From Bacteroidota bacterium (GTDB taxonomy: Bacteria > Bacteroidota > Rhodothermia > Rhodothermales > Bin80), in contig JAPPNA010000076.1 of NCBI GenBank assembly GCA_028873925.1, positions 1-49,632 on the forward strand: a stretch of 49,632 nt of DNA, in the 5' to 3' direction. Both the position numbers and the translations under genes were made by a program. The first letter of the stretch is position 1. Every line of letters starts with the position of its first letter. The notes below the pieces were generated by a model. That model had not been told where the DNA came from. It made no database searches and worked only from the letters and a program-made list of their open reading frames with translations. Of the stretch, positions 1 through 18,014 are shown piece after piece.

Positions 1-628
1 CCACAATAGCCATGGCCATCCGAATGGTCTGCTCGCTGTCCTGCTGACATAATATAGCCGCAATCTTCATCGGCGCATCCGGGTAGTCGCCGGCTTCCCT
101 GCGCAGACGATGGGTCGCCTGGATGATGCCAGTCTCCAGTCGCTCTATGCCCTCCCTAACCCTGTTCTCAGAAAGCGCAGCCAGCTCAATGCAATTCGCC
201 AGGTCGTCAATCCCGCCGGTGATCCAGCCCAAGGCCGGAAAACGAGTGTAGGTCAGAGGCGTACCGGAAAAAACACAGTAGCGATACGCTGCCTGGTTGA
301 TCTCCTGTTCCAGTCTGCTCTGGGATACCGTGCGCAGGCCGGATGGCAGCTGAACCGCGATCACCTGCTCAACGACATCCGCCGTCGCGCGCAGCGAAAC
401 ACCCAAACGGCTCAGCGCATCGTCTTCTACGGTCGAGGCCGGGGCATACTCCGTCTCAATGATCACGACCTGACCGGACGGATCCGGCACAACAATGTCC
501 GGGCGTTTGGATACATCCCCCAACAGAACATCGGTCTGCTCGCCGCTGAGATTCCGCCAGCGCGGATGCTTGGCGCGCAGTACGCGGGCCAACTCAACGT
601 TCAGGCCACCTTCCTGCGTTCTCGCCAT
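1..628 (-). CDS. DNA adenine methyltransferase-like protein, copy 1 (N-terminal part, runs off the left edge)
   Basis: This is the first ~209 codons of a second copy of the large methyltransferase-like gene at 1181-4114. The alignment has a constant offset of 3486 bases and no indel, so the frame is open from the ATG at 628 to the window edge. It holds the N-terminal region with the possible nuclease motif and ends well before the methyltransferase motifs, which would lie outside the window. Compared by eye, bases 298 to 660 are identical to copy 2, while bases 1 to 297 carry roughly 14 substitutions, some changing amino acids (Leu to Gln and Tyr to Phe near the Y-R-Y-C segment). The upstream spacer is also shared. 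Whether the rest of the gene is intact cannot be seen. Confidence 0.7.
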   Translation of the reverse strand, partial: MARTQEGGLNVELARVLRAKHPRWRNLSGEQTDVLLGDVSKRPDIVVPDPSGQVVIIETEYAPASTVEDDALSRLGVSLRATADVVEQVIAVQLPSGLRTVSQSRLEQEINQAAYRYCVFSGTPLTYTRFPALGWITGGIDDLANCIELAALSENRVREGIERLETGIIQATHRLRREAGDYPDAPMKIAAILCQQDSEQTIRMAMAIV

Positions 629-680
629 ATCGTATGACTGACTCCCGGCGCAATATACTGTGAAGCGGGCCAAACTGCTC
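1..680. repeat. Direct repeat, left copy (methyltransferase 5' half plus upstream spacer)
   Basis: Bases 1-680 match 3487-4165 in the same orientation, with a single extra G in the spacer near 668. The true left boundary is outside the window. Similarity stops after the CTC at 678-680, where sequence matching the sugar-dehydrogenase gene begins. Confidence 0.9.
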
Positions 681-741
681 GGCTTCAAGTCGGTGCCGCA
701 GCGTGGTGGCCCGATTCAGCGTGAGTGCTCAGGATACGCCG
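678..741 (+). pseudogene. Fragment of the PQQ-type sugar dehydrogenase gene
   Basis: About 60 bases starting at CTCGGCTTCAAGT match 4701-4764, inside the intact sugar dehydrogenase gene, with scattered mismatches. The fragment joins the methyltransferase spacer exactly at a CTC that both parent sequences contain (4163-4165 and 4701-4703). This looks like a deletion of roughly 535 bases by microhomology within an older duplicated copy of the methyltransferase/dehydrogenase border. It has no start or stop of its own and should not be expressed. Confidence 0.75.
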
Positions 742-848
742 CGGCACCACACTTCCCGGCACGACAACAGTGACACCTCCCCCATTGTGGGTGCCCGTAC
801 ACTGCCCGGCCGGCTTCCGCGTCTCAGGGCCTGGGACTGAAGCCGGCA

Positions 849-1166
849 TCATCGCCGACAGAAGGGCCACACGGCTGCTACCAGCATGGCCGGGCCCGCC
901 TGACGAATTGTTCTGAGTTTAACACCTAGGAGAATCAGTACGATACCCAGACTGATGCCGGGATCAATCAGCACATCATAGGCTTCGGAATCTCCGGGAA
1001 TCAACCCGACATCGAACAGCGCCATCGCAATCAGCGCCGCACTCAGCGATCGGAACAGCTTGTAGCGTCCCGCCAGGAAAACCGCCACCAGGACGACCCC
1101 GGTCAGGATCAGGAATACGGCAAATGGGCCGGGAATCATAATCGGCTGATGCAGGCTGCCAACCAT
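849..1166 (-). CDS. Small hydrophobic membrane protein, unknown
   Basis: I do not recognise this frame of about 105 residues. From the ATG at 1166 it holds three to four hydrophobic stretches (around residues 9-30, 37-50 and 68-82) separated by short basic loops, such as an A-G-R-Y-K-L-F-R segment, as expected for a small inner-membrane protein. The frame can extend upstream to 1244 over the end of the methyltransferase gene, but the ATG 14 bases after that gene's stop is the more natural start. It follows the methyltransferase on the same strand and could be co-transcribed. Between 742 and 848 I see no gene. No family assignment is possible, and the frame might be fortuitous. Confidence 0.4.
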   Translation of the reverse strand: MVGSLHQPIMIPGPFAVFLILTGVVLVAVFLAGRYKLFRSLSAALIAMALFDVGLIPGDSEAYDVLIDPGISLGIVLILLGVKLRTIRQAGPAMLVAAVWPFCRR

Positions 1167-1180
1167 CAAGCCGATCCAAC

Positions 1181-4114
1181 TCAGCAATTCTGCTTGATGA
1201 TCGCTGTCTTCTTGCCGCCGTGAACAGAGGGCTCCGCGCACCACTGCCGACGAATCAGGTCCAATTCGTCAACTATTTCCGAGGGCAGTCCCAACAGCTC
1301 CACCAGGAACGCCTCGTCCAACTGCTGCCGAACCTTGTCCCGGTACGCCTCATTTGCAGGCAGCAGCTGAGCATGTTCCAACTGACCGTACAAGTCGTTT
1401 GCCTGACGCAGCTGAGCCTGACTCAGTTTCCGGGGGTCCAAAGTGAGCAATTCAGGCAGCAGTGTAATGCTTACTCTGGAACGGCCACCGTGCTGCCGTG
1501 TCCCCAACCACCAGAACGCAATCAGGCCCAGGGTGGTATTGGCCCACAAAACTATCGGCATCTCCCAAGCAGTGTTACGGCAGACGAAATTGGGCCATGC
1601 CGTACCTCCGATGGTCTTCTCCCGCGTTAGGCAGGCTGCGAGCGACTGTGAGCTCAGCCCGAAGTCGCGATTGAAGTGCAATTTTGTTGCTGTCTTCTTC
1701 CAGTCTTCGCCGGCCCGCTGCTCGCATTGAGCGCGCGGTATGCACTCATGACCGGGAGCAACGGTCATCTGACGCTCCATTTCCGCCCGTATCTTCTGCC
1801 GCGGCCGCCGCCAACTGCCCCAAAGTGCCGGATAGGTCGCAATCGCTCCCTCACGCAACTCAACCACATCAAAGGGACCCCGAGGGGTCCCGTCCGGCCT
1901 CCTTTCCTTTCCCGAGATGTCCATGTGGTACAAACCGCGCTCACCCAACTCGCCAAGTGAAGTTATCGGAATCGGAACCGAGCGCGACAGCCTGGGCAGA
2001 TACAATTCACCCTTCTTCATCGCATTAACCGCATGGACCAAGGCCAAATTCCGTACCCCGGCACAGTTGGCCTCAGAAAGCCTGCCCTTAACATAATTGC
2101 CTACATACTCCTGCCCGCTTACCCTGATATGCCCCTCAGTTGGGCTGCCGCCGACCAACAGCCCGCGAATCTCCTGACTGACCACCATAGCCTCCAGGAT
2201 TGACCTCGGCCGCCGGTCCAAATTCACATACAGACAGGAATTGTCCCTCTCCGCCCCTGCCTTCCCGTTTCGGGTCGCCAACAGCAGCACCTCGGCCGTA
2301 CTCGTATCAGCAGAAAATGCCGTCTTACCATCATTGGCAATCGTCAATACCACCAAGTCCCTGTAATGCCTGGCAAGCAGCTGGCGGGCACTCCTCCAGG
2401 ACCGACCTGACAGGAAGGCGGCAGGCAGGACCATGGCCATGATGCCGGTCTGCCGTTTGATCTTCTTGTGCGCCACATCAATGAAATTTGAAGCCAACCC
2501 CGCATTGCCGTTGCCGGCAAAATCCGGCTGACGCATCACCTTTAGTCGGGAAGACATAAGCCGCTGCTCATCCGCGGGCGTGTCAAATCCGGCAAAAGAC
2601 GGCACCGGAATCCCGATCTTGGCCCCTTCATGTCCCGTCGGACGGGTAAACGGCGGATTCATGATCACAAAATCAAACGACTCATGCGGAATCTCCACCG
2701 ATTGAGCTTCTGCCCCTGAACCGGACAATGTCTGCTGACCCGTACCAAAAATGGGCACGGTCTGGTCATCCTCCATCAGGTCAAGAGCACCCAGCGCGAC
2801 ACCGCGCCCGGTATCTTCCGGCTGTCGCCCATAGGGCAGCGTGATGATTGCGGTCCGCCTGAATGGAACCGTTGGATGCGCGCCGGACAGGATTGACGCG
2901 GTCAGATGCGTTGCCGCTGGCATGATGTCTGACCCCACCAGCACATGCTCAATCATTTCGGCGTGTATGGACGCGTCATCTCCGCCCGCTCTGCGATGCG
3001 CCCGCTGAATGGCCGTGTATGCGGCATTCAACAATGTGCCCGTTCCGCAGGCAAAGTCCGCCACCCGCAAGCGGGTAACCGCCTCCGCGTCAGTCCAGTC
3101 CACTTGCAAACGGGATACGGCAAGGCCGGACAGCAAGGCCGCCGAACTGGGCAAGGTGTAATAGGTTGCCAGCAGCTTGCGGTCCGTAATCAGACGCTGA
3201 AACATTCGCCCGGACAGGTCATGCTGACTGTTTGCCCCCAATTTGTCCAGATAAGCGGCCACATCATGCAACAGCGTCAGGATGCCATCCGCTGTGCGAT
3301 CCCGAATGGGGGCCAGTATATCTGAGGCCACCTTGAAAACCGGCCAGTAGTTGATATCGTGCAGGATGTGCCGCCACACGCGCTGAACCCGGGATTTCGA
3401 AATCTCGCCATCCCATCCGCGCAACTCACCTATCGGATCAATGCCGTGCGTGCCCGCCACGGCATGATGAAATGTCATCGCATTAGCCACAATAGCCATG
3501 GCCATCCGAATGGTCTGCTCGCTGTCCTGCTGACATAATATGGCCGCAATCTTCCTCGGCGCATCCGGGTAGTCTCCGGCTTCCCTGCGCAGACGATGGG
3601 TCGCCTGGATGATACCTGTCTCCAGTCGCTCTATGCCCTCCCTGACCCGGTTCTCAGAAAGCGCAGCGAGCTCAATGCAATTCGCCAGGTCGTCGATCCC
3701 GCCGGTGATCCAGCCCAAGGCCGGAAAACGAGTGTAGATCAGAGGCGTACCGGAATAAACACAGTAACGATACGCTGCTAGGTTGATCTCCTGTTCCAGT
3801 CTGCTCTGGGATACCGTGCGCAGGCCGGATGGCAGCTGAACCGCGATCACCTGCTCAACGACATCCGCCGTCGCGCGCAGCGAAACACCCAAACGGCTCA
3901 GCGCATCGTCTTCTACGGTCGAGGCCGGGGCATACTCCGTCTCAATGATCACGACCTGACCGGACGGATCCGGCACAACAATGTCCGGGCGTTTGGATAC
4001 ATCCCCCAACAGAACATCGGTCTGCTCGCCGCTGAGATTCCGCCAGCGCGGATGCTTGGCGCGCAGTACGCGGGCCAACTCAACGTTCAGGCCACCTTCC
4101 TGCGTTCTCGCCAT
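1181..4114 (-). CDS. DNA N6-adenine methyltransferase-like protein (Type I/IIG restriction-modification-like), copy 2
   Basis: Predicted 977 residues from the ATG at 4114; the open frame continues to 4258, but copy 1 shows the same ATG and spacer, so I use it. Near residue 353 is the SAM-binding motif I (D-F-A-C-G-T-G-T-L-L) and near 486 the amino-methyltransferase motif IV (N-P-P-F). A segment just before motif I (A-T-Y-Y-T-L-P, ~316) resembles the equivalent region of HsdM-type enzymes. The N-terminus (about 44-63) has an acidic pattern, D-I-V-V-P-D then I-I-E-T-E, that could be a PD-(D/E)XK-like nuclease core, though the final lysine is replaced. The C-terminal ~250 residues could be a target-recognition region. 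No separate specificity or restriction subunit is adjacent. Family reading is firm for the methylase core; restriction activity is inference. Confidence 0.75.
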   Translation of the reverse strand: MARTQEGGLNVELARVLRAKHPRWRNLSGEQTDVLLGDVSKRPDIVVPDPSGQVVIIETEYAPASTVEDDALSRLGVSLRATADVVEQVIAVQLPSGLRTVSQSRLEQEINLAAYRYCVYSGTPLIYTRFPALGWITGGIDDLANCIELAALSENRVREGIERLETGIIQATHRLRREAGDYPDAPRKIAAILCQQDSEQTIRMAMAIVANAMTFHHAVAGTHGIDPIGELRGWDGEISKSRVQRVWRHILHDINYWPVFKVASDILAPIRDRTADGILTLLHDVAAYLDKLGANSQHDLSGRMFQRLITDRKLLATYYTLPSSAALLSGLAVSRLQVDWTDAEAVTRLRVADFACGTGTLLNAAYTAIQRAHRRAGGDDASIHAEMIEHVLVGSDIMPAATHLTASILSGAHPTVPFRRTAIITLPYGRQPEDTGRGVALGALDLMEDDQTVPIFGTGQQTLSGSGAEAQSVEIPHESFDFVIMNPPFTRPTGHEGAKIGIPVPSFAGFDTPADEQRLMSSRLKVMRQPDFAGNGNAGLASNFIDVAHKKIKRQTGIMAMVLPAAFLSGRSWRSARQLLARHYRDLVVLTIANDGKTAFSADTSTAEVLLLATRNGKAGAERDNSCLYVNLDRRPRSILEAMVVSQEIRGLLVGGSPTEGHIRVSGQEYVGNYVKGRLSEANCAGVRNLALVHAVNAMKKGELYLPRLSRSVPIPITSLGELGERGLYHMDISGKERRPDGTPRGPFDVVELREGAIATYPALWGSWRRPRQKIRAEMERQMTVAPGHECIPRAQCEQRAGEDWKKTATKLHFNRDFGLSSQSLAACLTREKTIGGTAWPNFVCRNTAWEMPIVLWANTTLGLIAFWWLGTRQHGGRSRVSITLLPELLTLDPRKLSQAQLRQANDLYGQLEHAQLLPANEAYRDKVRQQLDEAFLVELLGLPSEIVDELDLIRRQWCAEPSVHGGKKTAIIKQNC

Positions 4115-4165
4115 ATCGTATGACTGACTCCCGGCGCAATATACTGCGAAGCGGCCAAACTGCTC
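3487..4165. repeat. Direct repeat, right copy
   Basis: This is the partner of 1-680. It spans the N-terminal ~209 codons of the intact methyltransferase gene and about 50 bases of the divergent spacer. The match ends at CTC (4163-4165). Confidence 0.9.
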
Positions 4166-4326
4166 AAGCCGCAAGGGACCACTTGCATGACGTACTGAAG
4201 TCCAAACTGCCCATTTTGGGCACCGCAGGTACGTTATGGCCATACAGGCCCGAACCAATCCGCACAGATTGCCGTAATCTGCCCCGGATGAGCGTACAAC
4301 AGACTCAAAGAATCCAAGTCACCAAT

Positions 4327-6093
4327 ATGGATATTCCTCTCCGCACCATAGGCGCACAACCTGGGGCCGTCAGGTACCTGGCCGGACCACTGGGGCTTGT
4401 GCTGCTGGTAGGTTTGCTGACCCCCGCTGCAACACTGGGACAGCCGCAGGTCAGCCTCGAAATCGCCTTCCCGGAGCTGCGCTTTGTGCGCCCGGTGGAT
4501 CTGCAGCATCGCCATCATCAGATCTATGTGGTAGAACAGTCAGGACGCATCTGGACGTTCGCCAATGATCCGCAGAGCACCGAACGGCAGGTGTTTCTGG
4601 ACATACGTTCTCGTGTCAGCAACCGTGGCAACGAAGAGGGACTGCTCGGTCTGGCCTTTCACCCGGACCACGAAACCAACGGGCACTTCTTTGTCTACTA
4701 CTCGGCTTCAAGTCCGCGCCGCAGCGTGTTGGCCCGATACAGCGTGAGCGCCCAGGATACACTGCGGGCCGATCCGACCAGTGAAGAGATTATCCTGACC
4801 CTCAGCCAGCCCGCCAGTAATCACAATGGCGGACAGATCGCCTTCGGGCCGGATGGCTACCTGTATATCGCTTTCGGGGATGGCGGCGGTGCTAATGACC
4901 CGTTCGGCCACGGCCAGAACAGGACCACCCTGCTCGGCACCATCGCCCGCATTGATGTGGATCAGACACCCTACGGCATCCCGTCTGACAACCCGTTTGC
5001 GGGCAGTTCAGTTTATCGCGAAGAGATATACGCCTGGGGATTGCGCAATCCCTGGCGATTCAATATTGATTTCAAGACCGGATATCTGTATGCCGCCGAT
5101 GTCGGTCAGTCAAGCCGGGAGGAGATCAATATCATCACCCGCGGGGGCAACTACGGCTGGAACATTATGGAAGGCACACGCTGCTTCCGATCTGTCAGTT
5201 GTAACCGGACCGGTCTGGAGCTGCCGATCTATGAGTACAACCATCAGAGTGGCGCAGCATCCGTGACCGGTGGCTATGTGTACTACGGACCGCGCGTCCC
5301 GGACCTTGGTGGATGGTACGTATTTGCCGACTATGTGGACGGGCGTGTTTGGGGCCTGGTCTACCAGAACGACCGGCTGGAGCAGAGTGCATTACTGTTG
5401 GATACGTCCCTGTTGATCAGTTCATTCGGCCGCGATCACCGCGGCGAAGTCTACGCACTCGCCTTTGACGGATTCATATATCGCTTTACCAGTACCGGGG
5501 GAGCATTGGGGTTTGAAGAGCATGCGCGGGACTATTCCCTGGTGCAGCATGGAACAGCCGCAGCGATCACCCTGCCGGCCGCCACCGGCGGCACACCGCC
5601 GTATTTCTACAGACTCTATCCGGCGGATCTCCCCGCGGGGCTGTCCTTTGATGAGGAGAGCCGACAGATATTGGGCACACCTTCCGACAGCTCTGCCTCC
5701 ACCTTGTATGATTACCGCGCGTTTGACGCGGGCGGGCGTGAAGGAATTCAGCTGTTCCGCCTTGAGGTAAAAGCTGCCATCGGGACCTCAGCTGCGCAAA
5801 CGACACCGGCGGCTGAAGCCCTGCGGGTGCACGGCAACTACCCGAATCCGTTCGCGGATCAGACCCGCATTACCTTTGACTTGAGTACGCCTTCTGAAGT
5901 GTCGCTGGCCGTGTTGGATATCCGCGGACGCCAGGTGGCGGCGCTGCCGCCGCGGCGATTTGATGCCGGTGCCGGCCACTCACTCCAGCTGCCCACCAAT
6001 CTGCTCTCCAGCGGGCCCTATCTGGCCCGGATCACGGCCAACTCATCCGACGGAATGATCACCCAAACCATCCCTGTTCTTCGGGTCCGGTGA
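4327..6093 (+). CDS. Secreted PQQ-dependent glucose/sorbosone dehydrogenase-family protein with T9SS sorting tail
   Basis: Predicted 588 residues. The ATG at 4327 is preferred because it opens a signal peptide (hydrophobic run about residues 17-37, ending near A-T-L-G-Q); the frame extends upstream without protein-like character, and an ATG at 4288 is an alternative. Residues ~50-400 are a beta-propeller of the soluble glucose/sorbosone dehydrogenase family, with G-Q-I-A-F-G-P-D-G-Y-L-Y and the G-L-R-N-P-W-R-F signature. An Ig-like domain of the putative-Ig type (~415-490) follows. The last ~85 residues begin with Y-P-N-P-F, the hallmark of a T9SS type A sorting domain, implying export through the outer membrane. 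Likely role is oxidation of a sugar or polyol outside the cell. It is divergent from the methyltransferase and ends 5 bases before the convergent lipase gene. Confidence 0.85.
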   Translation: MDIPLRTIGAQPGAVRYLAGPLGLVLLVGLLTPAATLGQPQVSLEIAFPELRFVRPVDLQHRHHQIYVVEQSGRIWTFANDPQSTERQVFLDIRSRVSNRGNEEGLLGLAFHPDHETNGHFFVYYSASSPRRSVLARYSVSAQDTLRADPTSEEIILTLSQPASNHNGGQIAFGPDGYLYIAFGDGGGANDPFGHGQNRTTLLGTIARIDVDQTPYGIPSDNPFAGSSVYREEIYAWGLRNPWRFNIDFKTGYLYAADVGQSSREEINIITRGGNYGWNIMEGTRCFRSVSCNRTGLELPIYEYNHQSGAASVTGGYVYYGPRVPDLGGWYVFADYVDGRVWGLVYQNDRLEQSALLLDTSLLISSFGRDHRGEVYALAFDGFIYRFTSTGGALGFEEHARDYSLVQHGTAAAITLPAATGGTPPYFYRLYPADLPAGLSFDEESRQILGTPSDSSASTLYDYRAFDAGGREGIQLFRLEVKAAIGTSAAQTTPAAEALRVHGNYPNPFADQTRITFDLSTPSEVSLAVLDIRGRQVAALPPRRFDAGAGHSLQLPTNLLSSGPYLARITANSSDGMITQTIPVLRVR

Positions 6094-6098
6094 CGCAC

Positions 6099-7277
6099 CT
6101 AAAACGAATTGAACCAGGCCCGCGCGCCCAGAATACTGGGCACCGCACAGTCGCCGTGATCAGATTTAGCGGACGGGTCCACCAGTTCAACAGCTCCATC
6201 CATCTCCGCAAGCGCAACTTCGGAATTAAGCTTGGGCACCAGCTCATCACCCGCACAATGGTACAGCCGTACGGGGGCCTTCGGTGCCCAGTCGGTGAGA
6301 TCATTTTCCCGCAGCGCCTGCCGCATCGGATGCGCCGGATCATTCATCAGTGCCGCGGCGACATCCTCCCGAATAATATCAATCGGCACCTGGGGCATCT
6401 CCGCATTGATGGCGCGCCCGGAATGCAGCCCGTCAAACAGCGGCGGCAGCGTTGCATCCCACGGAGATCGAAGGTATTCCGACGGATGCTCAAACAGACC
6501 GTAGACCTCGTTGTAGGCAAACAGCACATACGGCAGATAGTAGGGATTCGCATACGGCGCACGCTGAATCAGGATCAATTCATACATGGTGCCGCTGAGA
6601 TCATAAGGACCGGCCATGGGTGCCGAAGCGGTGACGGTGAATTCAGATGCGTATTCCGCCTCCAAGGCCCGATGAGCCGCCATCGTGGCGTATCCCCCTT
6701 CAGAGTACCCTGCCAGGAACAGCTCGCCGGAAAGCGACCACTGCCGTGACTGAGCCAAATGCCGGACAGCCCGCAGCATGTCAACAACCGCTGTTCCGGT
6801 GGGCTCAGCCAGCAGATACGGGTGTAAGCCGGGAGAATCCCCCAATCCCAGGTAATCCGGCAGCGCTACCAGATAGCCATCTGACGCAAATGCCAGCCCC
6901 GGAACGAATTCTCCGGCTTCCCGGGATGGCACATCTTCCCTGATGACAGTCGTACCGTGCTGAAAACTCAGGATGTTCAGCGCGCCAAGTACAGGCATAG
7001 GCACCACAACAGCACCTGAGGCCTGCGTAACCCCGCCCTGAGCATCAACGGTCTCATAGGTCAGATGAAAGACATCTGCGCCGTATCGGGCCGCAAAAGG
7101 CAGACCGAATGCTTCAATCTGTCCGTTGATGGCCGCAGCCGGGTACTGACCAATCAGCTCAGCCGCGATCACCGCTCCACGCCCGGAAACCGCTGCGGGC
7201 TCCTCGGAGGCGGATGGTGTCGTGTCACATCCGGTGACCAAGAGCACCAGGAACAGACCCGTCACTTGCAAACGCAT
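6099..7277 (-). CDS. Lipase-like alpha/beta-hydrolase lipoprotein
   Basis: Predicted 392 residues. A lipobox (L-L-V-T-G-C, Cys17) marks it as a lipoprotein. The fold is that of secreted lipases and esterases: nucleophile elbow G-Y-S-E-G-G (Ser192), a likely acid in C-A-G-D-E-L-V-P (Asp344) and a likely His374 in K-S-D-H-G-D-C. A helical lid-like insertion lies at about 230-330. It probably hydrolyses esters or lipids in the periplasm or at the cell surface. It lies downstream of the GH113-like lipoprotein on the same strand with about 40 bases between, so the two may share a transcript. Substrate is unknown. Confidence 0.78.
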   Translation of the reverse strand: MRLQVTGLFLVLLVTGCDTTPSASEEPAAVSGRGAVIAAELIGQYPAAAINGQIEAFGLPFAARYGADVFHLTYETVDAQGGVTQASGAVVVPMPVLGALNILSFQHGTTVIREDVPSREAGEFVPGLAFASDGYLVALPDYLGLGDSPGLHPYLLAEPTGTAVVDMLRAVRHLAQSRQWSLSGELFLAGYSEGGYATMAAHRALEAEYASEFTVTASAPMAGPYDLSGTMYELILIQRAPYANPYYLPYVLFAYNEVYGLFEHPSEYLRSPWDATLPPLFDGLHSGRAINAEMPQVPIDIIREDVAAALMNDPAHPMRQALRENDLTDWAPKAPVRLYHCAGDELVPKLNSEVALAEMDGAVELVDPSAKSDHGDCAVPSILGARAWFNSF

Positions 7278-7318
7278 GGAGGTTTCGGTCCAATCTGCTG
7301 GCTGAGAATGATTCCGGT

Positions 7319-8344
7319 TCAGGGTGCGCCTCCGAATCCCCGCCGTATCACATCTTCGGCCAACTTGCCCTGCGGAGAAAAATCCAGCATATTTCGCCTT
7401 CGGTCCCGATCACCGGTCCATTTCCACAGAATCGCCCCCTCAAACCAGGGCTCCTCCCGGAAATTCTCAAAAAAGCTCTCGTACAGGCGGGCCTGCAATG
7501 GATCATCCGGCGCGACACGTCCAATTTCGTCCCGGGAGGGCCAACGCCAAGGCTTTGCGGCTGCGTCCGGCACATTCCGGTAGCCGATTTCGGTGAACAA
7601 CACGGGCCTGCCTGTTTCGGTTGCCAACTGCTTCAGATCAGACTTATACTTACGCCAGCCACCGGCCAGTTCCGCCAGCGATGGATCGGGCACATCACTG
7701 AGTTCAAAATAGCCCTGAATGCCGATTGCGTCCACATCCTCCCAAAACGTTACATGTTCATACTCGTCCCACCAGTTGGCCGCGTAGGTAAGGTGCCCAC
7801 TGTAAACCTGTCGCACCTGCCCGATCAGGGCCCTCCAGAACTGCGGGCGTTCCCGCGCAGACCGGGCCAGCTCTGTACCGACAACGAGCATGTAAGCCTT
7901 TATTTCCTCGGCCAGAAGCGCATAGTGCATAATGAGCTCCTGATACTGTGACTCCCATTCAAGCCATTCGGCTTCTGAGGTATATCCGATGCTGCTTCGG
8001 GACTGGCCTTCGGTACTGTAGCGCCCGAGCCATAAGTGCGGCTTTACGATGATTCCCATCCCGAGGCTGTCAGCCGCCGCCGCCAACTCTCGTGCGCCGC
8101 GATCACTCTCGCTGTACCAGCGGGCATCCGGCTGCATGCGGATCACCGGAACATCCGCGTCCCGCTGAAAACCGAACTGCACTAGAGTGATATGGGTCAA
8201 GCCCATGGCCCTGAGCGCTGGCAGCATATCCGCTGAGGGCCGGTTGCGGGCATCCAGCGTGACCGAACGCACCTGCCACGCCGTGTGGCCGCCCGCCCCG
8301 CTGCAGCCGGCGAGTACCAGTGCCAAAGCTAATGCTCTAAACAT
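7319..8344 (-). CDS. GH113-like glycoside hydrolase lipoprotein
   Basis: Predicted 341 residues with a very short lipoprotein signal (L-V-L-A-G-C, Cys14). The body is a TIM-barrel resembling glycoside hydrolase family 113 (mannanase-like). Two glutamates stand at the expected strand ends: Glu158 in V-V-G-T-E-L as acid/base and Glu252 in L-F-T-E-I-G-Y-R as nucleophile. Aromatic-rich loops (W-W-D-E-Y, K-P-W-R-W) suit sugar binding. The start is supported by an unusually strong ribosome-binding site, GGGAGGAGG, 8 bases upstream. The gene is divergent from the aminotransferase-fold gene. Natural substrate cannot be told from sequence. Confidence 0.72.
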   Translation of the reverse strand: MFRALALALVLAGCSGAGGHTAWQVRSVTLDARNRPSADMLPALRAMGLTHITLVQFGFQRDADVPVIRMQPDARWYSESDRGARELAAAADSLGMGIIVKPHLWLGRYSTEGQSRSSIGYTSEAEWLEWESQYQELIMHYALLAEEIKAYMLVVGTELARSARERPQFWRALIGQVRQVYSGHLTYAANWWDEYEHVTFWEDVDAIGIQGYFELSDVPDPSLAELAGGWRKYKSDLKQLATETGRPVLFTEIGYRNVPDAAAKPWRWPSRDEIGRVAPDDPLQARLYESFFENFREEPWFEGAILWKWTGDRDRRRNMLDFSPQGKLAEDVIRRGFGGAP

Positions 8345-8352
8345 GAAAATTT

Positions 8353-8361
8353 CCTCCTCCC
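8353..8361 (-). promoter_or_regulatory. Strong Shine-Dalgarno for the GH113-like gene
   Basis: On the minus strand the sequence reads GGGAGGAGG, 8 bases before the ATG at 8344. Most other starts in this window show much weaker sites, so it stands out and fixes this start. Confidence 0.75.
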
Positions 8362-8402
8362 AAATTTATGTAGATTGCAACAAGCAGTACAGCATTATGC
8401 AC

Positions 8403-9701
8403 ATGACCAGCCGCCGAGATTTTTTTCATCAGATCGGTGTTCCGGCCGCGGCGCTGGCTGGCAGTTCGCTGATCCCGGCGCGCCTTCCGGGTCTGCTGGA
8501 ACGCATGGCATCGGTGTCACACGATGTGACCGAAGACGAGTCCTTCTGGCTGGAAATACAGCAGGCCTTTACGGTGGACCGCAGCCTCATCAATCTCAAC
8601 AGCGGCGGTGTCAGCCCGTCTCCGCGCATTGTGCAGGAGGCCATGAAGGGTCACCTGGACTACTCCAATGAAGCGCCGGTCTACACGATGTGGCGCATTC
8701 TTGAGCCGCAGCGCGAAGGGGTCCGCCAGCGGCTGGCCCGCTCATTCGGCTGTGATGCCGAGGAAATCGCCCTGGTACGCAATGCCAGTGAGGGTTTGCA
8801 GATCTGCCAGTTGGGATTTGATCTGCGGCCCGGCGATGAAGTCCTCACCACAACGCAGGACTATGGCCGCATGATTACCACCTTCAAGCAGCGGGAGCGT
8901 CGCGATGGGATTGTGCTGAAACAGTTCCCGGTGCCGATACCGGCGGAGGATCCGGATGAGATCGTCCGACTCTTTGAGTCCAACATCACACCCCGCACCC
9001 GCCTGATCCTGATGTGCCACATGATCAATATTACCGGCCAGATCCTGCCGGTCAGGCCGGTGGTGCAGATGGCCCGGCATCGGGGCATCCCGGTCATAGT
9101 GGACGGAGCCCATGCGTACGGCCACTTTAACTTCACCCATGCGGACCTGGATTGTGATTACTATGCCTCCAGCCTGCACAAGTGGCTGCTGGCCCCGCAC
9201 GGTACAGGCCTGTTATATGTGCGCAAAGATAGGATTCCCGGGCTGTGGCCGCTCATGGCCGCGCCGGAGGGCATGGATGATGATATCCGCAAGTACGAGG
9301 AAATCGGTACACACCCGGCCGCCAACTATGTGGCCATCGCCGAAGCACTGACCTTTCATCAGGGAATCGGGGCCAGGCGCAAGGAGAATCGCCTGCGATA
9401 CCTGCGCGACTACTGGGCGAAACCCCTGCTGGAACACGACCGCGTGCGACTCCACACCAGCCTGAAACCCGAGTTCTCGTGCTGTATCGGCACCGTGGAG
9501 ATCGAGGGCGTTGATACCGCCAAACTGGGGGAACACCTCTGGAGCACCTACCGGATCATCGCTACGCCTATCAAGCATTCGGAATTTGAAGGGCTCCGTG
9601 TCACCGCCAACGTATTCACCACGCTGGAGGAACTGGACCGATTCATCGATGCCATGGAACAGGTGATCCGCCACGGACTGCCCGCATCCGCGGCTGGATA
9701 A
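8403..9701 (+). CDS. Tat-exported class V aminotransferase-fold (isopenicillin N epimerase-like) PLP protein
   Basis: Predicted 432 residues. The start at 8403 (or an ATG two codons earlier) places a twin-arginine motif, S-R-R-D-F-F, at residues 3-8, followed by a hydrophobic stretch, so the protein is probably folded with its cofactor and exported by Tat. The class V fold is shown by V-D-G-A-H-A (Asp234, contacting the PLP ring nitrogen) and S-L-H-K-W (Lys260, the Schiff-base lysine). The family includes cysteine desulfurase-like and isopenicillin-N-epimerase-like enzymes; which reaction is catalysed is unknown. The frame continues upstream to 8187 only as a shadow of the divergent gene. It ends 4 bases before the convergent peptidase. 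Confidence 0.83.
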   Translation: MTSRRDFFHQIGVPAAALAGSSLIPARLPGLLERMASVSHDVTEDESFWLEIQQAFTVDRSLINLNSGGVSPSPRIVQEAMKGHLDYSNEAPVYTMWRILEPQREGVRQRLARSFGCDAEEIALVRNASEGLQICQLGFDLRPGDEVLTTTQDYGRMITTFKQRERRDGIVLKQFPVPIPAEDPDEIVRLFESNITPRTRLILMCHMINITGQILPVRPVVQMARHRGIPVIVDGAHAYGHFNFTHADLDCDYYASSLHKWLLAPHGTGLLYVRKDRIPGLWPLMAAPEGMDDDIRKYEEIGTHPAANYVAIAEALTFHQGIGARRKENRLRYLRDYWAKPLLEHDRVRLHTSLKPEFSCCIGTVEIEGVDTAKLGEHLWSTYRIIATPIKHSEFEGLRVTANVFTTLEELDRFIDAMEQVIRHGLPASAAG

Positions 9702-9705
9702 CCGG

Positions 9706-12135
9706 CTATCCGGTCGGCTCCGCCACTTCAACAGCTGACGGAGCGTTCTTGACGTAGGTATCCAGCCACCGGGCGGTTTCCCATAATACATGCAGCACCG
9801 ATTCGCGTGCGCGGTAGCCGTGACTCTCATGCGGCAGCATCACCAGACGCGCCGTCTTGCCGAGCCCCTTCAAGGCGCTGTAAAACCGCCGGCTCTGCAC
9901 CGGATATGTGCCCGAATTATTGTCGGCCTCCCCGTGGATCAGCAGGATCGGCTCATTCACCTTGTCGGCATGCATGAAAGGCGACATCGTGTAGTACGTC
10001 TCCGGCGACTCCCAGTACAGACGCTGCTCGGCCTGAAAACCGAAAGGCGTAAGCGTGCGGTTGTAGGCTCCGCTCCGTGCGATCCCGGCCGTGAACAGAT
10101 CCGAGTGCGCCAGGAGATTCGCGGTCATGAACGCCCCGTAGGAATGACCCGCAATGGCCACGCGCTTGGGGTCCAGAATACCGCGACGCGCACCCTCATC
10201 AATCACCGCCTGCGCATTGGCGACCAACTGCTCGCGAAATGTATCATTGGGCTCCTGGTCCCCTTCACCAATCACCGGCATGGCCGCCCCGTCCAGAATC
10301 GCGTACCCCTGGGTGACATACGGTACGGCACCGGAATAACTGACATACTTGAACCGGTAGGGGCTGCCTATGCGCTGACCGGCGGCCGATGTACTCTTGA
10401 ATTCACGGGGGTATGCCCACACCAGTCCCGGCAGCGGACCATCCCGTTCCTTGTCATAACCGGGCGGCAGGAAGAGCGTGGCACTCAGGGGTATCCCATC
10501 GGCCCGGCTGTACTGAATGTATTCCTTCGTGATCGCGGTAAGCTCGGGGTACGGATGCCTGAAGTCACTCACCCGATCCAAGGTGCCAGCCTCCAGGTCA
10601 CGCACATAGTAATTCGGAACTTCATCCACGGACTCCCGCTGTGTCAGCAGATGGCCATCGTTGAGAAGAGTGACCGGCCGCTCATAGTAGGGGGCCTCGC
10701 TCTGAAAGCGTGTTTCCGTTTCCCGGGTCTCAAGGTCAAGCGTCCGCAAAAACGGGCGATCCCCCTCTGCCGAGGCTCCGGCCCCGGTCAGATACAGCCG
10801 GCCATCCTGAATATGCAGTACGCGGCGGCCCCAGGCACCCGGCCGCGTCATCGGACTGCCGGGACTGTTGTATCGGTCCTCGTAGGAATAGTCAAACAGG
10901 CTGACAGGGGCTTCCGAAGGCTCCGAGGGGTTCACAATCCACGTGCGTACATGACGCGTGGCCGACCATCTCTCATCAATCAGCGCTAATTCGTCATCAC
11001 CCCACTGGATGCCCCCATAGCGGAGCGCCAGCTTTGCCAGAGAAATCGGCGAACCCTCAAAGGGGGCCGCCAGCATGAATACCTCATCGCGCAACTCCGC
11101 CTCGCGACCCGCGTCGCCTCCATCCAAGGCCTCAGCCCAATACAGGGTGGCCGCGGCATCCGCACGCCAGTTCAGGCTGCGGGGCCCGGTCGCTACCGAT
11201 CCGAAGGTTGTCGGCACATTCTCGGCCAGCGGCAAGCGCGCGATTTCGCGCACCATGGTGCCTTGGCGGTCATAAACCGTATAGGTCCGCGGGAAGCGGA
11301 AGACCGGCACCAGATACGAAAACGGGCGGTGAATGGCCGTCAGCAGAATATACTCACCATCCGGCGATGGACGGGCACCGGTCACCAGACCGGCCGGTCC
11401 GATGGCCGTTTCCGTGCCGTCCAGCGCGACCAGCACCGCCGAGGAGGTCATGTAATATTCAAACACCGCCTCGTCGTGCGGATCTGCGAGAAGGTCCTGG
11501 TAGGTTCTGGCCGGAGCTTTCAGGCCCTGATTTTCCTGCACGACCGGCCCCAACGGAGCCAGCGGGCGTTCCGGAACGGGGTCCCGGTCCTGAGGCACTG
11601 TAAGCACGACCATCGCTTCGCTGTCGGACATCCACGCGTAAGGCAGACCCGCCGCATTATTGACCGCCCAGTCGCCCACGCGTCGGGCCTGAGCTGTAGC
11701 CACATCCGCTACATACAGATGAATCCCATCGTCCACGTCCACGGTAAAGGCCAGCCGCGTGCCATCCGGTGAAAAGTTCACATTGCGCGCCTGCCTGTCT
11801 TCAGGCCACCCGGAAATGCGCCGTTCCGGCTGATCATCCAGGGTCTTGAGCCCCAGGGCCAGGTACCCCCTTGAGCGGCTGGGTCCGTGGGTGCGCGGAT
11901 TTATGCGCATGCCAGCCAGTCGGAGCTCCGCTGCAGCGAGGTCCGCAATCGGTGCCAGCCTGGGCGGATGCATCCACAACATCACATCACCCCTCGGGCT
12001 GACCCTCACGACAGGCGTAGTCGGCGCATCCACCAGCTGCCCCAGTGGATCGGGAGGGGTCTGGTAGGTCATCTGCGCGTTGGTCCGGAAGGTCAACAGC
12101 AGGACCAGGGTCAGAAGCAGGGCAGAGGTTTTCAT
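9706..12135 (-). CDS. Secreted prolyl oligopeptidase family (S9) serine peptidase
   Basis: Predicted 809 residues from the ATG at 12135, which starts a clear signal peptide (M-K-T-S-A-L-L-L ... T-N-A-Q, about 21 residues); the open frame starts nine codons earlier. The N-terminal ~550 residues have beta-propeller character (repeated S-P-D-G-type turns), and the C-terminal ~250 form the alpha/beta-hydrolase domain with G-H-S-Y-G (Ser665), G-E-A-D-N (Asp738) and H-E-S-H-G (His772). The length and order fit the S9 group of dipeptidyl/oligopeptidases, acting on short peptides in the periplasm or outside. The uvrA gene lies upstream on the same strand, 42 bases away. A role in peptide scavenging is inferred. 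Confidence 0.88.
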   Translation of the reverse strand: MKTSALLLTLVLLLTFRTNAQMTYQTPPDPLGQLVDAPTTPVVRVSPRGDVMLWMHPPRLAPIADLAAAELRLAGMRINPRTHGPSRSRGYLALGLKTLDDQPERRISGWPEDRQARNVNFSPDGTRLAFTVDVDDGIHLYVADVATAQARRVGDWAVNNAAGLPYAWMSDSEAMVVLTVPQDRDPVPERPLAPLGPVVQENQGLKAPARTYQDLLADPHDEAVFEYYMTSSAVLVALDGTETAIGPAGLVTGARPSPDGEYILLTAIHRPFSYLVPVFRFPRTYTVYDRQGTMVREIARLPLAENVPTTFGSVATGPRSLNWRADAAATLYWAEALDGGDAGREAELRDEVFMLAAPFEGSPISLAKLALRYGGIQWGDDELALIDERWSATRHVRTWIVNPSEPSEAPVSLFDYSYEDRYNSPGSPMTRPGAWGRRVLHIQDGRLYLTGAGASAEGDRPFLRTLDLETRETETRFQSEAPYYERPVTLLNDGHLLTQRESVDEVPNYYVRDLEAGTLDRVSDFRHPYPELTAITKEYIQYSRADGIPLSATLFLPPGYDKERDGPLPGLVWAYPREFKSTSAAGQRIGSPYRFKYVSYSGAVPYVTQGYAILDGAAMPVIGEGDQEPNDTFREQLVANAQAVIDEGARRGILDPKRVAIAGHSYGAFMTANLLAHSDLFTAGIARSGAYNRTLTPFGFQAEQRLYWESPETYYTMSPFMHADKVNEPILLIHGEADNNSGTYPVQSRRFYSALKGLGKTARLVMLPHESHGYRARESVLHVLWETARWLDTYVKNAPSAVEVAEPTG

Positions 12136-12177: not shown

Positions 12178-15012
12178 CTACTCGGATTCGCCGAGAGCTT
12201 CGCGCATGATTGCAGCGGTACTGGTCGACTTTTTGGCCAGAGCCTCGGGCGTGCCGGCAAACAGGACGCGCCCGCCCTTGTCCCCACCTTCAGGGCCTAG
12301 GTCAATAATGTGGTCGGCTACTTTGATCACATCCGGATTGTGCTCAATCACTACGACCGTATTGCCCTTATCCACCAAGGCCTGCAGCACCTCCAGCAGC
12401 TGCCGGATATCTTCGAAATGCAGCCCTGTGGTCGGCTCGTCCAACAGATAAACCGTGTCGCCGCGCCCGGGTCTGGACAGCTCCTTGGACAACTTGACCC
12501 GTTGCGCCTCTCCTCCGGAAATCGTCGTTGATGGCTGTCCCAGGCGGACATACCCCAACCCTACCGACTGCAAGGTCTTTACCTTGCGCATGATGTTGGG
12601 CACCGGAGCAAAGAACTCGGCCGCCTCATCTACCCGCATGTTCAATACATCCGCAATCGTTTTGCCCTTATACGCGATTTCGAGCGTTTCCGTGTTATAC
12701 CGCTTCCCATCGCAGGTCTCACAGACGACATACACATCCGGCAGGAAATTCATCTCAAGCCGGACCAGTCCGCCGCCCTTACAGGCTTCACAGCGCCCGC
12801 CGATCACATTGAATGAAAACCGCCCCGGCTTGTAGCCGCGCACCTTGGATTCCGGGAGATTGGCAAACAGATTCCGTATTTGCGTGAACAGGGTGATGTA
12901 GGTGGCCGGATTGGATCTTGGCGTGCGCCCGATCGGCTTCTGATCAATATCAATGACTTTGGAGACGAATTTCCACCCCAGCAGCTTATCGTGCGACAGC
13001 GCTACGCGTTCCGCTTTCCTATTGAGCTTGGTCATCAGCGCCGGGAACAGCGTCTGGTTGATCAGCGAGCTCTTGCCTGAACCGCTCACCCCGGTCACGC
13101 ACACAAAAAGCCCCAACGGCAGTCGCAGGTCCACATTCTTGAGATTGTGTCCTCTGGCATTAAACAGGCGAAGCCATCGACGGCTTGGTTTACGCCGGGA
13201 CTCCGGGACGGGTATACAGCGTTCACCCGACAGATATTCGGCTGTTATGCCATTGTGCTGCGCCCCGTTCTGCTCTTTTAACAGCGATGGCTGGCCAGCC
13301 CACACGATATGCCCCCCTTTTTCTCCCCCTCCGGGTCCCAGATCCAGGACATAGTCCGCCGCCTCAATCATATCCCGGTCATGTTCAACTACCAGCACGG
13401 AGTTTCCCAGATCGCGCAGACTCTGAAGTGACCGGATCAGCTTTCGGTTGTCGCGCGCATGCAGTCCGATCGAGGGCTCATCCAGCACATACAGTACGCC
13501 GGTAAGCTGGGTGCCGATCTGGGTGGCCAGCCGGATCCGCTGACTTTCCCCCCCAGAGAGCGTGGCCGACGGGCGGTTCAGTTTGAGATAACCAACCCCC
13601 ACATCCACCATAAAGGATACGCGCTCCTTTATCTCCTTCAGAATAGGCCCGGCGATGGTGGCCTGGCGCTGGCCGAACTCCACCGTGTCCAGAAATCCCT
13701 GCAGCTGAAGCAGATCCATATTGCCCAGATCCGCGATCGTATGATCCCCGATACGATAGGACAACGCCTCCCGATTGAGTCGACCACCGCCACACACCCG
13801 GCAGGCCGCATGGCGGCGATACTTGTCAAACTGCTTCTTTTCCCGTTTGGAGGCTACCGCATATTCGTGATCCAGATAGGTGTACACCCCAGAATACATC
13901 ATACTGAATTTCTGATTCCAGTAGCTGGCCTTAATGACGTAGGAATTGTTCAGATCGCCATCAAGTATGATCCGCAGCGTCTTCTTCGGCAGATCACGGA
14001 TGGGCGTATCCATGGACCCGCCGTGGTGCGCGACAGCAGCTTTCAATAGGGTCCAGGCATAGGTGTAATCCTGAATCTCGGGCGAGAAACAGAACACGGC
14101 CCCCTGATTCAGGGATTTGGATCTGTCCCGGATAACTAGGTCCTCCACCCAGGTTTCAAGCTCTCCCCACCCGACGCATTCCTTGCACCATCCGTAGGGC
14201 GAGTTGAACGAGAAAGTGTTCGGCGAGGCCTCTGCATACGAAATCCCCGTGTCGGGGTCGTACAGATGCCGACTGTACACGCGGTCCGGCTTACCTTTGG
14301 TCTGCACCAGCAGGACACCATCTCCCAGCTCCAAGGCCGTGTTGACCGTCTGCCGGATGCGGCCCTCATTACCGTCCTGCACGACCAGGCGATCGACGAC
14401 CACATCAATATTATGCACTTTATACCGCTGCAGCCGCATGCCCGGTGTGACCGTGCGCATCCTGCCGTTGACACGCACTTTGGTGAATCCCAGTGAGCTG
14501 ATCTTCTCAAACAGCTCACGGTAATGCCCCTTGCGTCCTCTCACCAGCGGAGCCAGCACGCTGAATCGCTGACCCGTCTGCTGCTTAAGCAGATTTTCGG
14601 TAATCTCGTCGGGCGACTGCCGAACCAGCGGCCGGCCGGAGGTGGAGGAAAAAGAGGTCGCGGCCCGGGCGTACAGCAGGCGCAGAAAATCATACACCTC
14701 CGTGACCGTACCCACCGTGGAACGGGGGTTGCGGGACACCGTCTTCTGCTCAATGGCTATGACCGGGGACAGCCCTTCAATGCGGTCCACATCAGGGCGC
14801 TCCAGCATCCCCATGAACTGGCGGGCATAGGAGCTCAGGCTTTCCATATACCGCCGCTGCCCCTCGGCATATATGGTGTCAAAAGCCAGTGAGCTTTTGC
14901 CGGACCCCGAAAGCCCTGTGATCACCACGAGCGCATCACGGGGAATATCAACCGTTACATTCTGTAGATTGTGTTCTCTTGCACCCTGAACACTAATCCA
15001 TTGCTGCTCCAT
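12178..15012 (-). CDS. uvrA: UvrABC excinuclease subunit A
   Basis: Predicted 944 residues, full length for the DNA-damage sensor of nucleotide excision repair. Two ABC ATPase halves are visible: Walker [10 protein letters not shown] at 33-41 and G-V-S-G-S-G-K-S-S near 640, each with a later signature (L-S-G-G-E-S-Q-R and I-S-G-G-E-A-Q-R) and Walker B (V-L-D-E-P-S and L-L-D-E-P-T). Cys-x2-Cys pairs mark the zinc modules (C-K-E-C and C-R-V-C in the first half, C-E-A-C and C-E-T-C in the second). It binds damaged DNA as a dimer and loads UvrB. It starts 3 bases after the stop of rpoZ and is almost surely co-transcribed with it. Confidence 0.96.
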
Positions 15013-15360: not shown

Positions 15361-15858
15361 ATGCACAAGTCCTTGAAGAGTTCCCGCCGCCTGATGGCGG
15401 TGCTGCTGCTGATGGCAGGCTGTTCTGCCTCTTCTGAGCACGACCGGGATACCACGTCGTGGCCGGAAGTGCTGCAGTTTCAGTCTGTAGGCTGGGGTCA
15501 TCATGCGCCGCTTGACTCCATGCGCAACACAACGCGCCGGATCTCCAGCCACGCGGAATGGACGCTGTATCAGGATTCGCTACAGCCGCTGCGACCGTTC
15601 CAGCCGGTGGACTTTTCCACGCAGATGCTCATACTGGTGGCCACGCCGGTACCCTCCACAGGTTACGGGCTGCGTGTTGAGACGGTGGAAACGTTCCTTG
15701 ATACGACTACCGTAACCTACCGCGTGTATGCGCCCGCGCCGGACTGCCTGGTCGCCGATCTGCCCGGGAATGTGTTTGACGTGGTTCGCCTGAACCGCCA
15801 CGACAATCCAATGCGCTACCTCGAAGAAACGGAGGCGATCAGGTGCTCGGTTCGCTGA
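15361..15858 (+). CDS. PrcB-like lipoprotein
   Basis: Predicted 165 residues from the ATG at 15361; the frame is open from 15331, but the later start gives a tidy lipoprotein signal ([16 protein letters not shown]). The mature part has a central segment ([12 protein letters not shown] then alternating hydrophobic strands with T-V-T-Y-R-V-Y) like the C-terminal domain of PrcB, a small protein associated with a protease complex in oral spirochaetes. The last 20 bases overlap the end of the convergent ABC ATPase gene. Function is not predictable beyond a periplasmic or membrane-anchored small domain. Confidence 0.6.
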
Positions 15859-16606
15859 CCAGGCCGGCTTCTTCGGCAATCCACTGGCGTGCCAGCATCG
15901 GATTTTCGATGCGCTGATCCGTCTCAATCAGTCCGTCCCGCAGGCGGATGACCCGGCGCGCATGTTGCGCTACATGTTCCTCGTGGGTCACCACGAGCAG
16001 CGTGTTACCCCGGCGGTACAGCAGCTCAAACAGCAGCATGATGTCCTCTCCGGTCTTGGTGTCCAGATTACCCGTCGGTTCGTCGGCGAGCACCAGGGCG
16101 GGATTGTTGACCAGCGCGCGAGCAACCGCCACACGCTGGCGCTGCCCGCCGGAGAGTTCATTGGGTTTGTGGGCTACGCGGTCACTCAGACCCACCAGAT
16201 CAAGCGCGTGGGCCGCCATTTCGCGGCGCCGGCCCCGGCGTTTGCCGGAGTAGATCAGGGGCAGTTCCACATTCTGCAGGCAGTTGGCACGCGGCAGCAG
16301 ATTGAATGTTTGAAAAACAAAGCCCACTTCCTCGTTGCGCACTTCAGCGAGCTCGTCATCCTCCATCTCACTGACATTGCGTCCGCGAAGGTGATAGGAG
16401 CCGGAAGTGGGCGAGTCCAGGCAGCCGACCAGATTCATGAGTGTGGATTTGCCGGACCCTGAAGGACCCATGATCGCCACATACTCATTGGGGAAGATGT
16501 CCAGGCTGATGCCATCGAGCGCGTGGACCGACTCGGACCCCATCGGATATATCTTCTTGATATCGCGAAGGGCAATCAGAGCCCGTCCGGTTGTGACTGA
16601 ACCCAT
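15839..16606 (-). CDS. ABC transporter ATP-binding protein (MacB/LolD type)
   Basis: Predicted 255 residues from the ATG at 16606, which comes one base after the TGA of the adaptor gene. Walker A is G-P-S-G-S-G-K-S-T, the signature L-S-G-G-Q-R-Q-R-V and Walker [13 protein letters not shown], followed by a switch histidine (V-V-T-H-E-E). The subtype, with G-N-L-D after Walker B, is the MacB/LolD group that drives tripartite efflux or lipoprotein release. It is third in an operon behind TolC and HlyD genes. The membrane permease expected next to it is absent; the next gene is on the other strand. Confidence 0.92.
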
Positions 16607-16607
16607 A

Positions 16608-18014
16608 TCAGTCCCGTTCAAACGTGATACTGCCGCGCTGGCGCTCCCGCACCTCGTCGCCGTCGCTCAACGTCCGGCTTACCGCACTGTAGGGTCCCTG
16701 GACGACGCGCGTACCAGCTTCAAGACCCGATACTATTTCAATAAAGCGGTCGTCGGCGATCCCTGTTTCAACCTCAACGGCCTCCACCCGTCCGGTTTCG
16801 CGCACGGCAAATACCATCTTGCGCAGCTGTTCCCGCTGGCCTGGCTCCCCCGCAGCCGGTCGCTCCAGAGCTACGGCGGTTGTATCGCCTGCCCGGGAGG
16901 CCCGCCTGGCACGGGCCCGGCGGATATCGGCAAAGTCGCGCACACTTACACACTGAATGGGGACCGCGACGACCTGCGTCACCGTTTTGGTGAATATATC
17001 CACAGTACCGCTCATGCCCGGACGAAAGGCCGGGGAGTCTTCGGCATTCACCGTTTCCCCAATCGGGGTTCCGGAAGTCTGCGCCAGCAGATGTGCTTCC
17101 AGATTGTGCGGGTCCAGGATGCGAACCTTAACCGGAAAATTCGTCACCTGCTCCTGGAATGAGCCGCCCTGGAGGCGGGCGGAGTTGGCAATCTCGGTCA
17201 CCACTCCCTTGAAGGTACGCTCAGGGTACGCATCCACTTCAATCCTGGCTGTGTCACCCAAGGCGACATTAACCACATCATTCTCGCTGACTTCCACTTC
17301 AATTTCCATCTGATCCAGACGGGCAATCGTCATGATCGGCGTGCCGGCCTGCAGCTCATTGCCTGTCACGCGTTCGCCCAATTCAATTTCCAGTTTGCTT
17401 ACGGTACCGTCCATGGGCGCGTACAGCGCGGTTTTGCTGAGCTGCTCTTCCACTTCCTTAAGGCGGGCTTCGGAGCTTTCTACCGCGAACTGGGCCGCCT
17501 CAAGTGATGCCTGCGCGATTTCATACTGCGTGTTGGACTGCTCGTAAATCTCCTGGGCGATAACCTCCGCCTCAAAGAGCTGCTTCTGGCGCGCCCGGTC
17601 CTGCTCCCGCATCATAAGGTCCGCCCGGCGCTGGGCTTCCTGAGCCTTCGTCTGCGACAGGTTCGCTTCCGCCTGTTCCACCTGGGCCCGATAAAAATCC
17701 GGCTTGATCCGCGCCAGGAGCTGATTGCGCCTGATCATCTGCCCTTCCACCACGGGAAGCTCAACGACTTCTCCCGATACATCAGGACTGATGACAATTT
17801 CCACTTCCGGCTGTACGCGACCGGAGGCCGTCACGGTCTGGGTTACGGTGCGGACCTGGGCTGTGGTGATTTCCACTTCCTCGCCGTCTTTGTTGCCGCC
17901 GATAAATCGCGCCGCCACAATGGCCAGTACCAACAGCAGCACTATGGATGCGATCAATACGAAGATTAAGCGCCGCGTCCGCTTCTTTCGGGCAGCCTTG
18001 GACCGTTTAGCCAT
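16608..18014 (-). CDS. HlyD/MacA-family periplasmic adaptor of an efflux pump
   Basis: Predicted 468 residues. A basic N-terminus ([13 protein letters not shown]) precedes one inner-membrane helix (~16-37). Then come a half-lipoyl segment ([11 protein letters not shown]), a long alpha-hairpin rich in Glu, Gln and Ala (~105-190, coiled coil), the returning lipoyl segment (M-D-G-T-V-S-K-L) and beta-barrel and membrane-proximal domains. This layout is that of MacA-like adaptors bridging an ABC permease and TolC. It lies 21 bases after the TolC gene and one base before the ATPase gene. A low-complexity arginine/alanine patch (~360) is a species-specific insertion. Confidence 0.9.

Follow-up and report, generated by a model that had tools for sequence, protein, structure and literature searches.

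The window analyzed here is the whole of contig JAPPNA010000076.1 (49,632 nucleotides, nt) from a genome of the order Rhodothermales in the phylum Bacteroidota, and its first positions carry two copies of a gene for a predicted single-chain restriction-modification protein of the type IIG kind. The copies lie in direct orientation on the minus strand at an offset of 3,486 nt, and a sequence-only reading made before this analysis had correctly recognized them as a tandem pair of methyltransferase-like genes. The full gene is referred to below as the right copy, and the partial gene at the contig start as the left copy (Table 1). As far as the left copy extends, its protein part shows 98% identity to the right copy.

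Table 1. Features of the tandem gene pair and its surroundings, with positions in the window
Feature	Position	Strand	Evidence or remarks
Right copy, full-length type IIG-like restriction-modification gene, 977 amino acids	1181..4114	-	ATG at 4114, open frame; weak Pfam Eco57I and PADLOC MTase_II matches; AlphaFold2 (AF2) model
N-terminal domain of right copy, PD-(D/E)XK fold, residues 1-150	3665..4114	-	AF2 and structural comparison; D44, E58, E60 (codons 3935-3985)
Helical segment and gamma-class N6-adenine methyltransferase core, residues 151-600	2315..3664	-	Motifs and structural comparison
C-terminal recognition-region candidate, residues 601-970	1205..2314	-	Placed as the recognition domains of M.TaqI, CamA, and BrxX; where tandem paralogues differ most
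Left copy, 5′ part of second tandem copy	2..628	-	ATG at 628, 209 codons, no stop, runs off contig start
Identical tract in left copy (coding sequence -32 to +334), likely gene-conversion tract	295..660	-	366/366 nt vs 3781-4146
Identical tract in right copy	3781..4146	-	Equals 295-660
Diverged part of left copy	1..294	-	14 differences (4.8%) vs 3487-3780; nonsynonymous to synonymous rate ratio (dN/dS) about 0.17
Segment in common with right copy at contig edge	1..55		Exactly 55 nt in common with 3487-3541; de Bruijn (k=55) junction signature
Diverged homologous upstream flank	661..683		One substitution and one indel vs 4147-4168
71-nt piece matching a stretch within the glucose/sorbosone dehydrogenase gene (87% identity with 4697-4767)	674..744		Sequence comparison
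Small hydrophobic open reading frame (ORF) between the copies, 108 amino acids	849..1175	-	Sub-threshold, weak DUF819 match
Neighboring gene, glucose/sorbosone dehydrogenase-like secreted protein, divergent from the methyltransferase gene	4393..6093	+	Pfam GSDH, 4e-41

The likeness between the two copies is distributed unevenly along the gene. A tract that begins 32 nt before the ATG, ends at nt 334 of the coding sequence (CDS), and covers residues 1-111 is identical throughout; it takes in the start codon region and the nuclease-like core of the protein, and none of the recognition region. The sequence-only reading had given this identity as 298-660 against 3784-4146, which stands except that the run extends slightly further. 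Its count by eye of about 14 substitutions to the left proved exact, all 14 lying within 1-294, and several of them do alter residues as it proposed, with four codons changed (Q112L, F120Y, T126I, and M187R) and nine changes synonymous. Expressed per site, there are nine changes in 71 synonymous sites vs five in 226 nonsynonymous sites, which yields the low ratio listed in Table 1. The diverged part of the left copy is under purifying selection, with both copies selected to keep the protein, and the earlier suggestion that this part was left free to diverge is therefore too strong.

Nor is divergence confined to one side of the tract, as had first been thought, since the upstream flank of the two copies differs as well. 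Because the clean tract thus has diverged homologous DNA on both sides, gene conversion is the favored explanation: the two genes are probably tandem type IIG-like paralogues in which an intragenic conversion of about 370 nt has covered the gene start and the nuclease-like core, next to a part that is about 5% different. The proposal of a recent conversion of the gene start, already made from the letters, is in this respect the best explanation available, with two-sided divergence in the window and a direct phylogenetic test in related genes (L124/L114, below). An ordinary recent tandem duplication, with differences clustered by chance and no conversion, is an alternative, and the fact that 14 differences are few and the tract short is in its favor. 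However, if the differences were uniformly placed, a clean run such as this one would arise with P of 2e-4, or 8e-5 with the upstream differences counted as well (about 1 in 5,000 to 12,000 draws), and identity ends abruptly on both sides within homologous DNA. At a P of about 1e-4, chance clustering is quite improbable. A further part of the earlier interpretation, that both genes would be served by one expression signal, is not supported, as the copies are 553 nt apart with the small ORF between them. Consensus matching between the copies gave two weak promoter-like matches and no terminator, and nothing is concluded from these.

Related genes show the same process on a larger scale. Family members occur at about ten places in the window genome, and two of these are tandem pairs, namely the window pair and a pair on contig C116. 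On the latter, a full copy is followed by a 590-nt gap and then by the start of another copy. The two agree in every position from -91 to +79, where the contig ends, and the DNA beyond -91 is unrelated. Another member in this genome (L049, G000:C93, positions 5592-8257) has two in-frame TGA stops and broken frames, and is apparently a decaying copy. In a relative, the 29,481-nt contig G010:C99 features four copies in the same direction, the last three of them head to tail. Copies 2 and 3 have in common an exact run of 1,782 nt (CDS 25-1806, codon 9 to 602), followed by 47-75% identity over the recognition half; the break at about codon 602 falls at the end of the methyltransferase core.

The phylogenetic test is provided by the tandem pair L124a and L124b and its counterpart in another genome, L114a and L114b. 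Outside the 5′ end, identity between orthologues in these two pairs is 75-89% for the catalytic half; for the recognition region it is 70-86%, against 33-60% between paralogues. At the 5′ end, L124a equals L124b over 524 nt, and for most of that stretch L124a resembles L114a, which is orthologous to L124b, more closely than it does its own counterpart L114b. Sequence from L124b has therefore replaced the 5′ end of L124a. This tract is discordant with the orthologues; for the window pair, no close orthologue was found for the same test. The 5′ pattern recurs in L124, C116, and G010 C109/C116, and this recurrence, together with the discordance in L124, speaks further against plain duplication. 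Recombination is documented in the relatives, where conversion has yielded tandem genes that are identical in the catalytic half and distinct in the recognition half, and in the window by the shape of the tract. By analogy with these tandem pairs, the window pair may possess two DNA specificities, an idea also put forward in the sequence-only reading. A distant branch of the family, about 28% identical to the window protein, features a tandem pair of its own (L041, G010:C149, 5163-8093 and 8440-11376) that is identical over 2,357 nt and differs near the 5′ end.

Structure prediction places the encoded protein among the single-chain enzymes. The AF2 model based on an alignment of 75 relatives has a predicted local distance difference test score (pLDDT) of 87.6, and resembles BpuSI, DrdV, BrxX, and CamA. 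Folded alone, the first 155 residues (pLDDT 88.7) are predicted to adopt a PD-(D/E)XK-type fold, with its best structural matches to the nuclease domains of BpuSI (Z 9.4, 3.1 Å, 124 residues) and DrdV (Z 7.4), and lower matches to Holliday-junction resolvases, McrC, Can2, and BsaXI. The methyltransferase core carries motif I (ADFACGTG, approximately 3038-3064) and motif IV (NPPF, 2648-2659), and NPP is invariant in the 75 sequences. The model and the structural comparison indicate that the parts of the single polypeptide are arranged as in type IIG enzymes, with the nuclease-like domain first, followed by a helical connector, the methyltransferase, and the recognition region. Matches in sequence libraries are weak, with Pfam Eco57I at 22.3 bits (cut-off 25.3), PADLOC REase_MTase_IIG at 15.8 bits, and weak scores for NCBIfam methyltransferases. 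A sequence search of solved structures gave no match with the single protein, and only marginal BrxX matches with a profile.

In BpuSI (PDB 3s1s) and DrdV (7lo5, 7lvv), one chain likewise carries an N-terminal PD-(D/E)XK fold, a helical connector, a gamma-class methyltransferase, and a C-terminal recognition region in the same order. The window protein differs from both in sequence, at about 10-15% identity, and in having a glutamate in place of the catalytic lysine, while the family to which it belongs differs in forming tandem multi-copy arrays with gene conversion. Judged on the model, the protein is of type IIG architecture and is a candidate DNA-cutting enzyme.

The methyltransferase and recognition fold is also common to PglX/BrxX of the bacteriophage exclusion (BREX) system (8c45, 9ewz) and to CamA (7lt5). 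Residues 155-977 superpose on BrxX (Z 22.6, 5.9 Å, 637 residues), and there are weak profile matches, so that on the surface the gene might encode a BREX-type PglX/BrxX methyltransferase. Unlike the window protein, however, PglX/BrxX and CamA show no aligned N-terminal nuclease-like domain, and in the window protein this domain precedes the part that aligns with BrxX from BrxX residue 1. Profile scores of 17-21 bits are also far from the cut-offs of 500-900 (NCBIfam BREX MTaseX, for instance, at 20.5 vs 500, is not passed). Furthermore, BREX acts with other Brx/Pgl proteins, and no component, including pglZ and brxC, was detected by PADLOC among the ten neighboring ORFs, the part of the genome that was scanned. 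Membership in BREX is hardly credible on this evidence.

Several observations weigh against seeing the window genes as a pair of converted restriction enzymes with different recognition halves. Since only 209 codons of the left copy lie on the contig and the recognition region corresponds to codons ~601-970, the methyltransferase and recognition parts of the left copy are unseen. The L109 tandem pair, found in the chromosome-level assembly OX638380, is a reverse mosaic with different N-terminal parts, and with methyltransferase and recognition regions that are 93-99% identical. At the position of the catalytic lysine, glutamate (E60) is found in 72 of the 75 aligned sequences and lysine in three. 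Finally, the 366-nt repeat exceeds the k of 55, which would allow a mis-join inside it.

The glutamate bears on whether these proteins restrict DNA at all, a question separate from conversion. Replacement of the lysine in nearly all sequences, and the lack of a separate nuclease or helicase among the ten neighboring ORFs tested, would fit solitary regulatory methyltransferases that set methylation patterns and carry a dead nuclease domain. Yet the remaining active-site positions are not eroded: D44 and E58 are each present in 74 of the 75 sequences, and conservation of D44, E58, and E60 in 72-74 of 75 across many phyla is not what decay would leave. E-x-E sites are also known in active nucleases, BamHI being one with glutamate at the lysine position. 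A purely regulatory role is thus conceivable for the family, though rather doubtful.

The length of the repeat relates to a different alternative, in which the assembly collapsed or chimerically joined strain variants or a third paralogue through the 366 nt, and the mosaic in the left copy is unreal. The assembly is fragmented (185 contigs), the contig ends within the gene, and an exact 55-nt overlap is present at the edge. The same signature is seen at five contig ends inside family members, including window position 1, each having exactly 55 nt in common with another copy in the same genome. An overlap of this length fits a de Bruijn graph with k=55, and suggests that the contig stops at position 1 because, further on, the two copies return to one and the same sequence. 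An apparent enrichment of family copies at contig ends (six of ten within 1 kb of an end) was dropped as not significant, with P at 0.12 once gene length is allowed for, and the 55-nt overlaps are stronger evidence. Against an artifact, the left copy has upstream DNA of its own (661-1180), which is joined to the 3′ end of the right copy without a long repeat; because this segment joins the two copies, it places a second gene next to the first one independently of the 366-nt repeat. The divergence flanking the tract on either side has a natural character, and tandem pairs occur in a chromosome-level assembly and at several other loci. An assembly artifact is unlikely, and conversion between real tandem copies is preferred.

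Orthologues of the neighboring dehydrogenase gene in other genomes are only about 55% identical, and are uninformative for dating the insertion. The dehydrogenase-like fragment just upstream of the left copy appears as if an older duplication had taken in that gene and then lost most of it. Strong PADLOC matches to mad3 and mad8 (12178-15012 and 15839-16621, minus strand) profiled as a nearby MADS defense system; by Pfam, the two genes encode UvrA and an ABC transporter ATPase, and the candidate was rejected as a false-positive trap of those models.

The family was further traced by a scan of 84,980 species genomes, which returned 198 relatives, and habitats were counted for the top 80 by record names. 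Of these, 26 are coded CAR, COS, RHO, STY, or APA, fitting the sponge species of a published study (PMC8163846). Four more are MPN/MPM bins (bin131, bin80, bin36, and bin55), three of them listed in a study of Aplysina aerophoba (PMC5649159), and two are Candidatus Synechococcus spongiarum. The project names of the remaining 48 resemble sponge or reef symbiont projects, a likeness that is unproven as to habitat. Wherever its source could be traced, the family is found in symbionts of marine sponges, and from its named relatives the window genome would be that of a sponge symbiont too. As a control, six of 296 genomes sampled across the phylum of the window matched at E <= 1e-60, all within the window's own family.

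About 12 phyla are represented among the 75 aligned sequences. In the tree, L121, from a chromosome-level assembly of Rhodothermales, is nested among Latescibacterota sequences (L071, L134, and L137), a placement that likely reflects cross-phylum transfer, and bins assigned to Gemmatimonadota, Acidobacteriota, and Pseudomonadota carry sequences that are nearly identical. Together these comparisons suggest that the genes have moved from phylum to phylum, with the caveat that short contigs may have been mis-binned. Plasmids and phages were considered as vehicles of this spread and rejected, since collections of either contain almost no family members and the matches there are distant: at most 37% identity on plasmids, partial matches on haloarchaeal viruses, and nine distant IMG/VR contigs.

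The mechanism is most likely as follows, with the enzymatic and ecological steps inferred. The product of each gene is probably a single enzyme with a methylation motif of its own, and it would cut unmethylated DNA if the nuclease domain is active. Tandem copies recombine by conversion, with long tracts of the catalytic half, often from near the 5′ end, made alike, and with recognition halves that stay different. Selection by phages and plasmids would favor retaining several specificities. In the window, the left copy would in its full length have a recognition region of its own, and each copy would methylate and cut its own motif; across the family, a changing set of DNA specificities would be kept against phages and plasmids in the sponge environment.

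A comparable process is recognition-domain movement (DoMo) in the type I and type IIG S genes of H. pylori, where recombination between related genes changes recognition sequences (PMC3077401, PMC3983042). Both DoMo and the window family shift recognition by recombination among related genes. In DoMo, however, domains are exchanged in a stand-alone specificity subunit by way of short repeats at their flanks, whereas in the window family long tracts of a fused enzyme gene are homogenized from one tandem copy to another, with the recognition half remaining distinct. The type IIG kind is itself known, and we read the tandem mosaic arrays as the new element.

Sponge symbionts of many phyla are reported to carry many restriction-modification systems (PMC5099237, PMC5649159, PMC8163846). 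In the passages of these studies that were consulted, systems are counted by type or COG, and the window family, tandem arrays, and mosaic paralogues are not described. Enrichment of such genes in sponges is already known in general, and the window family would represent one particular component of it that is shared and open to testing. Alone, the window pair offers a modest example of tandem paralogues undergoing conversion, and the family is of greater interest. A tentative, and on present evidence speculative, extension is that horizontal transfer has spread tandem single-chain restriction enzymes among sponge symbionts from many phyla, and that conversion in these arrays keeps the catalytic halves alike while the recognition halves differ and recombine, giving rapidly renewable specificities. 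The arrays also carry a warning, in that short-read symbiont genomes undercount such systems because assemblies break inside the arrays. If the broader view is true, the family would offer a ready test system for the exchange of recognition domains in fused restriction enzymes, and would provide a concrete route by which the symbionts of one animal group diversify restriction specificity.

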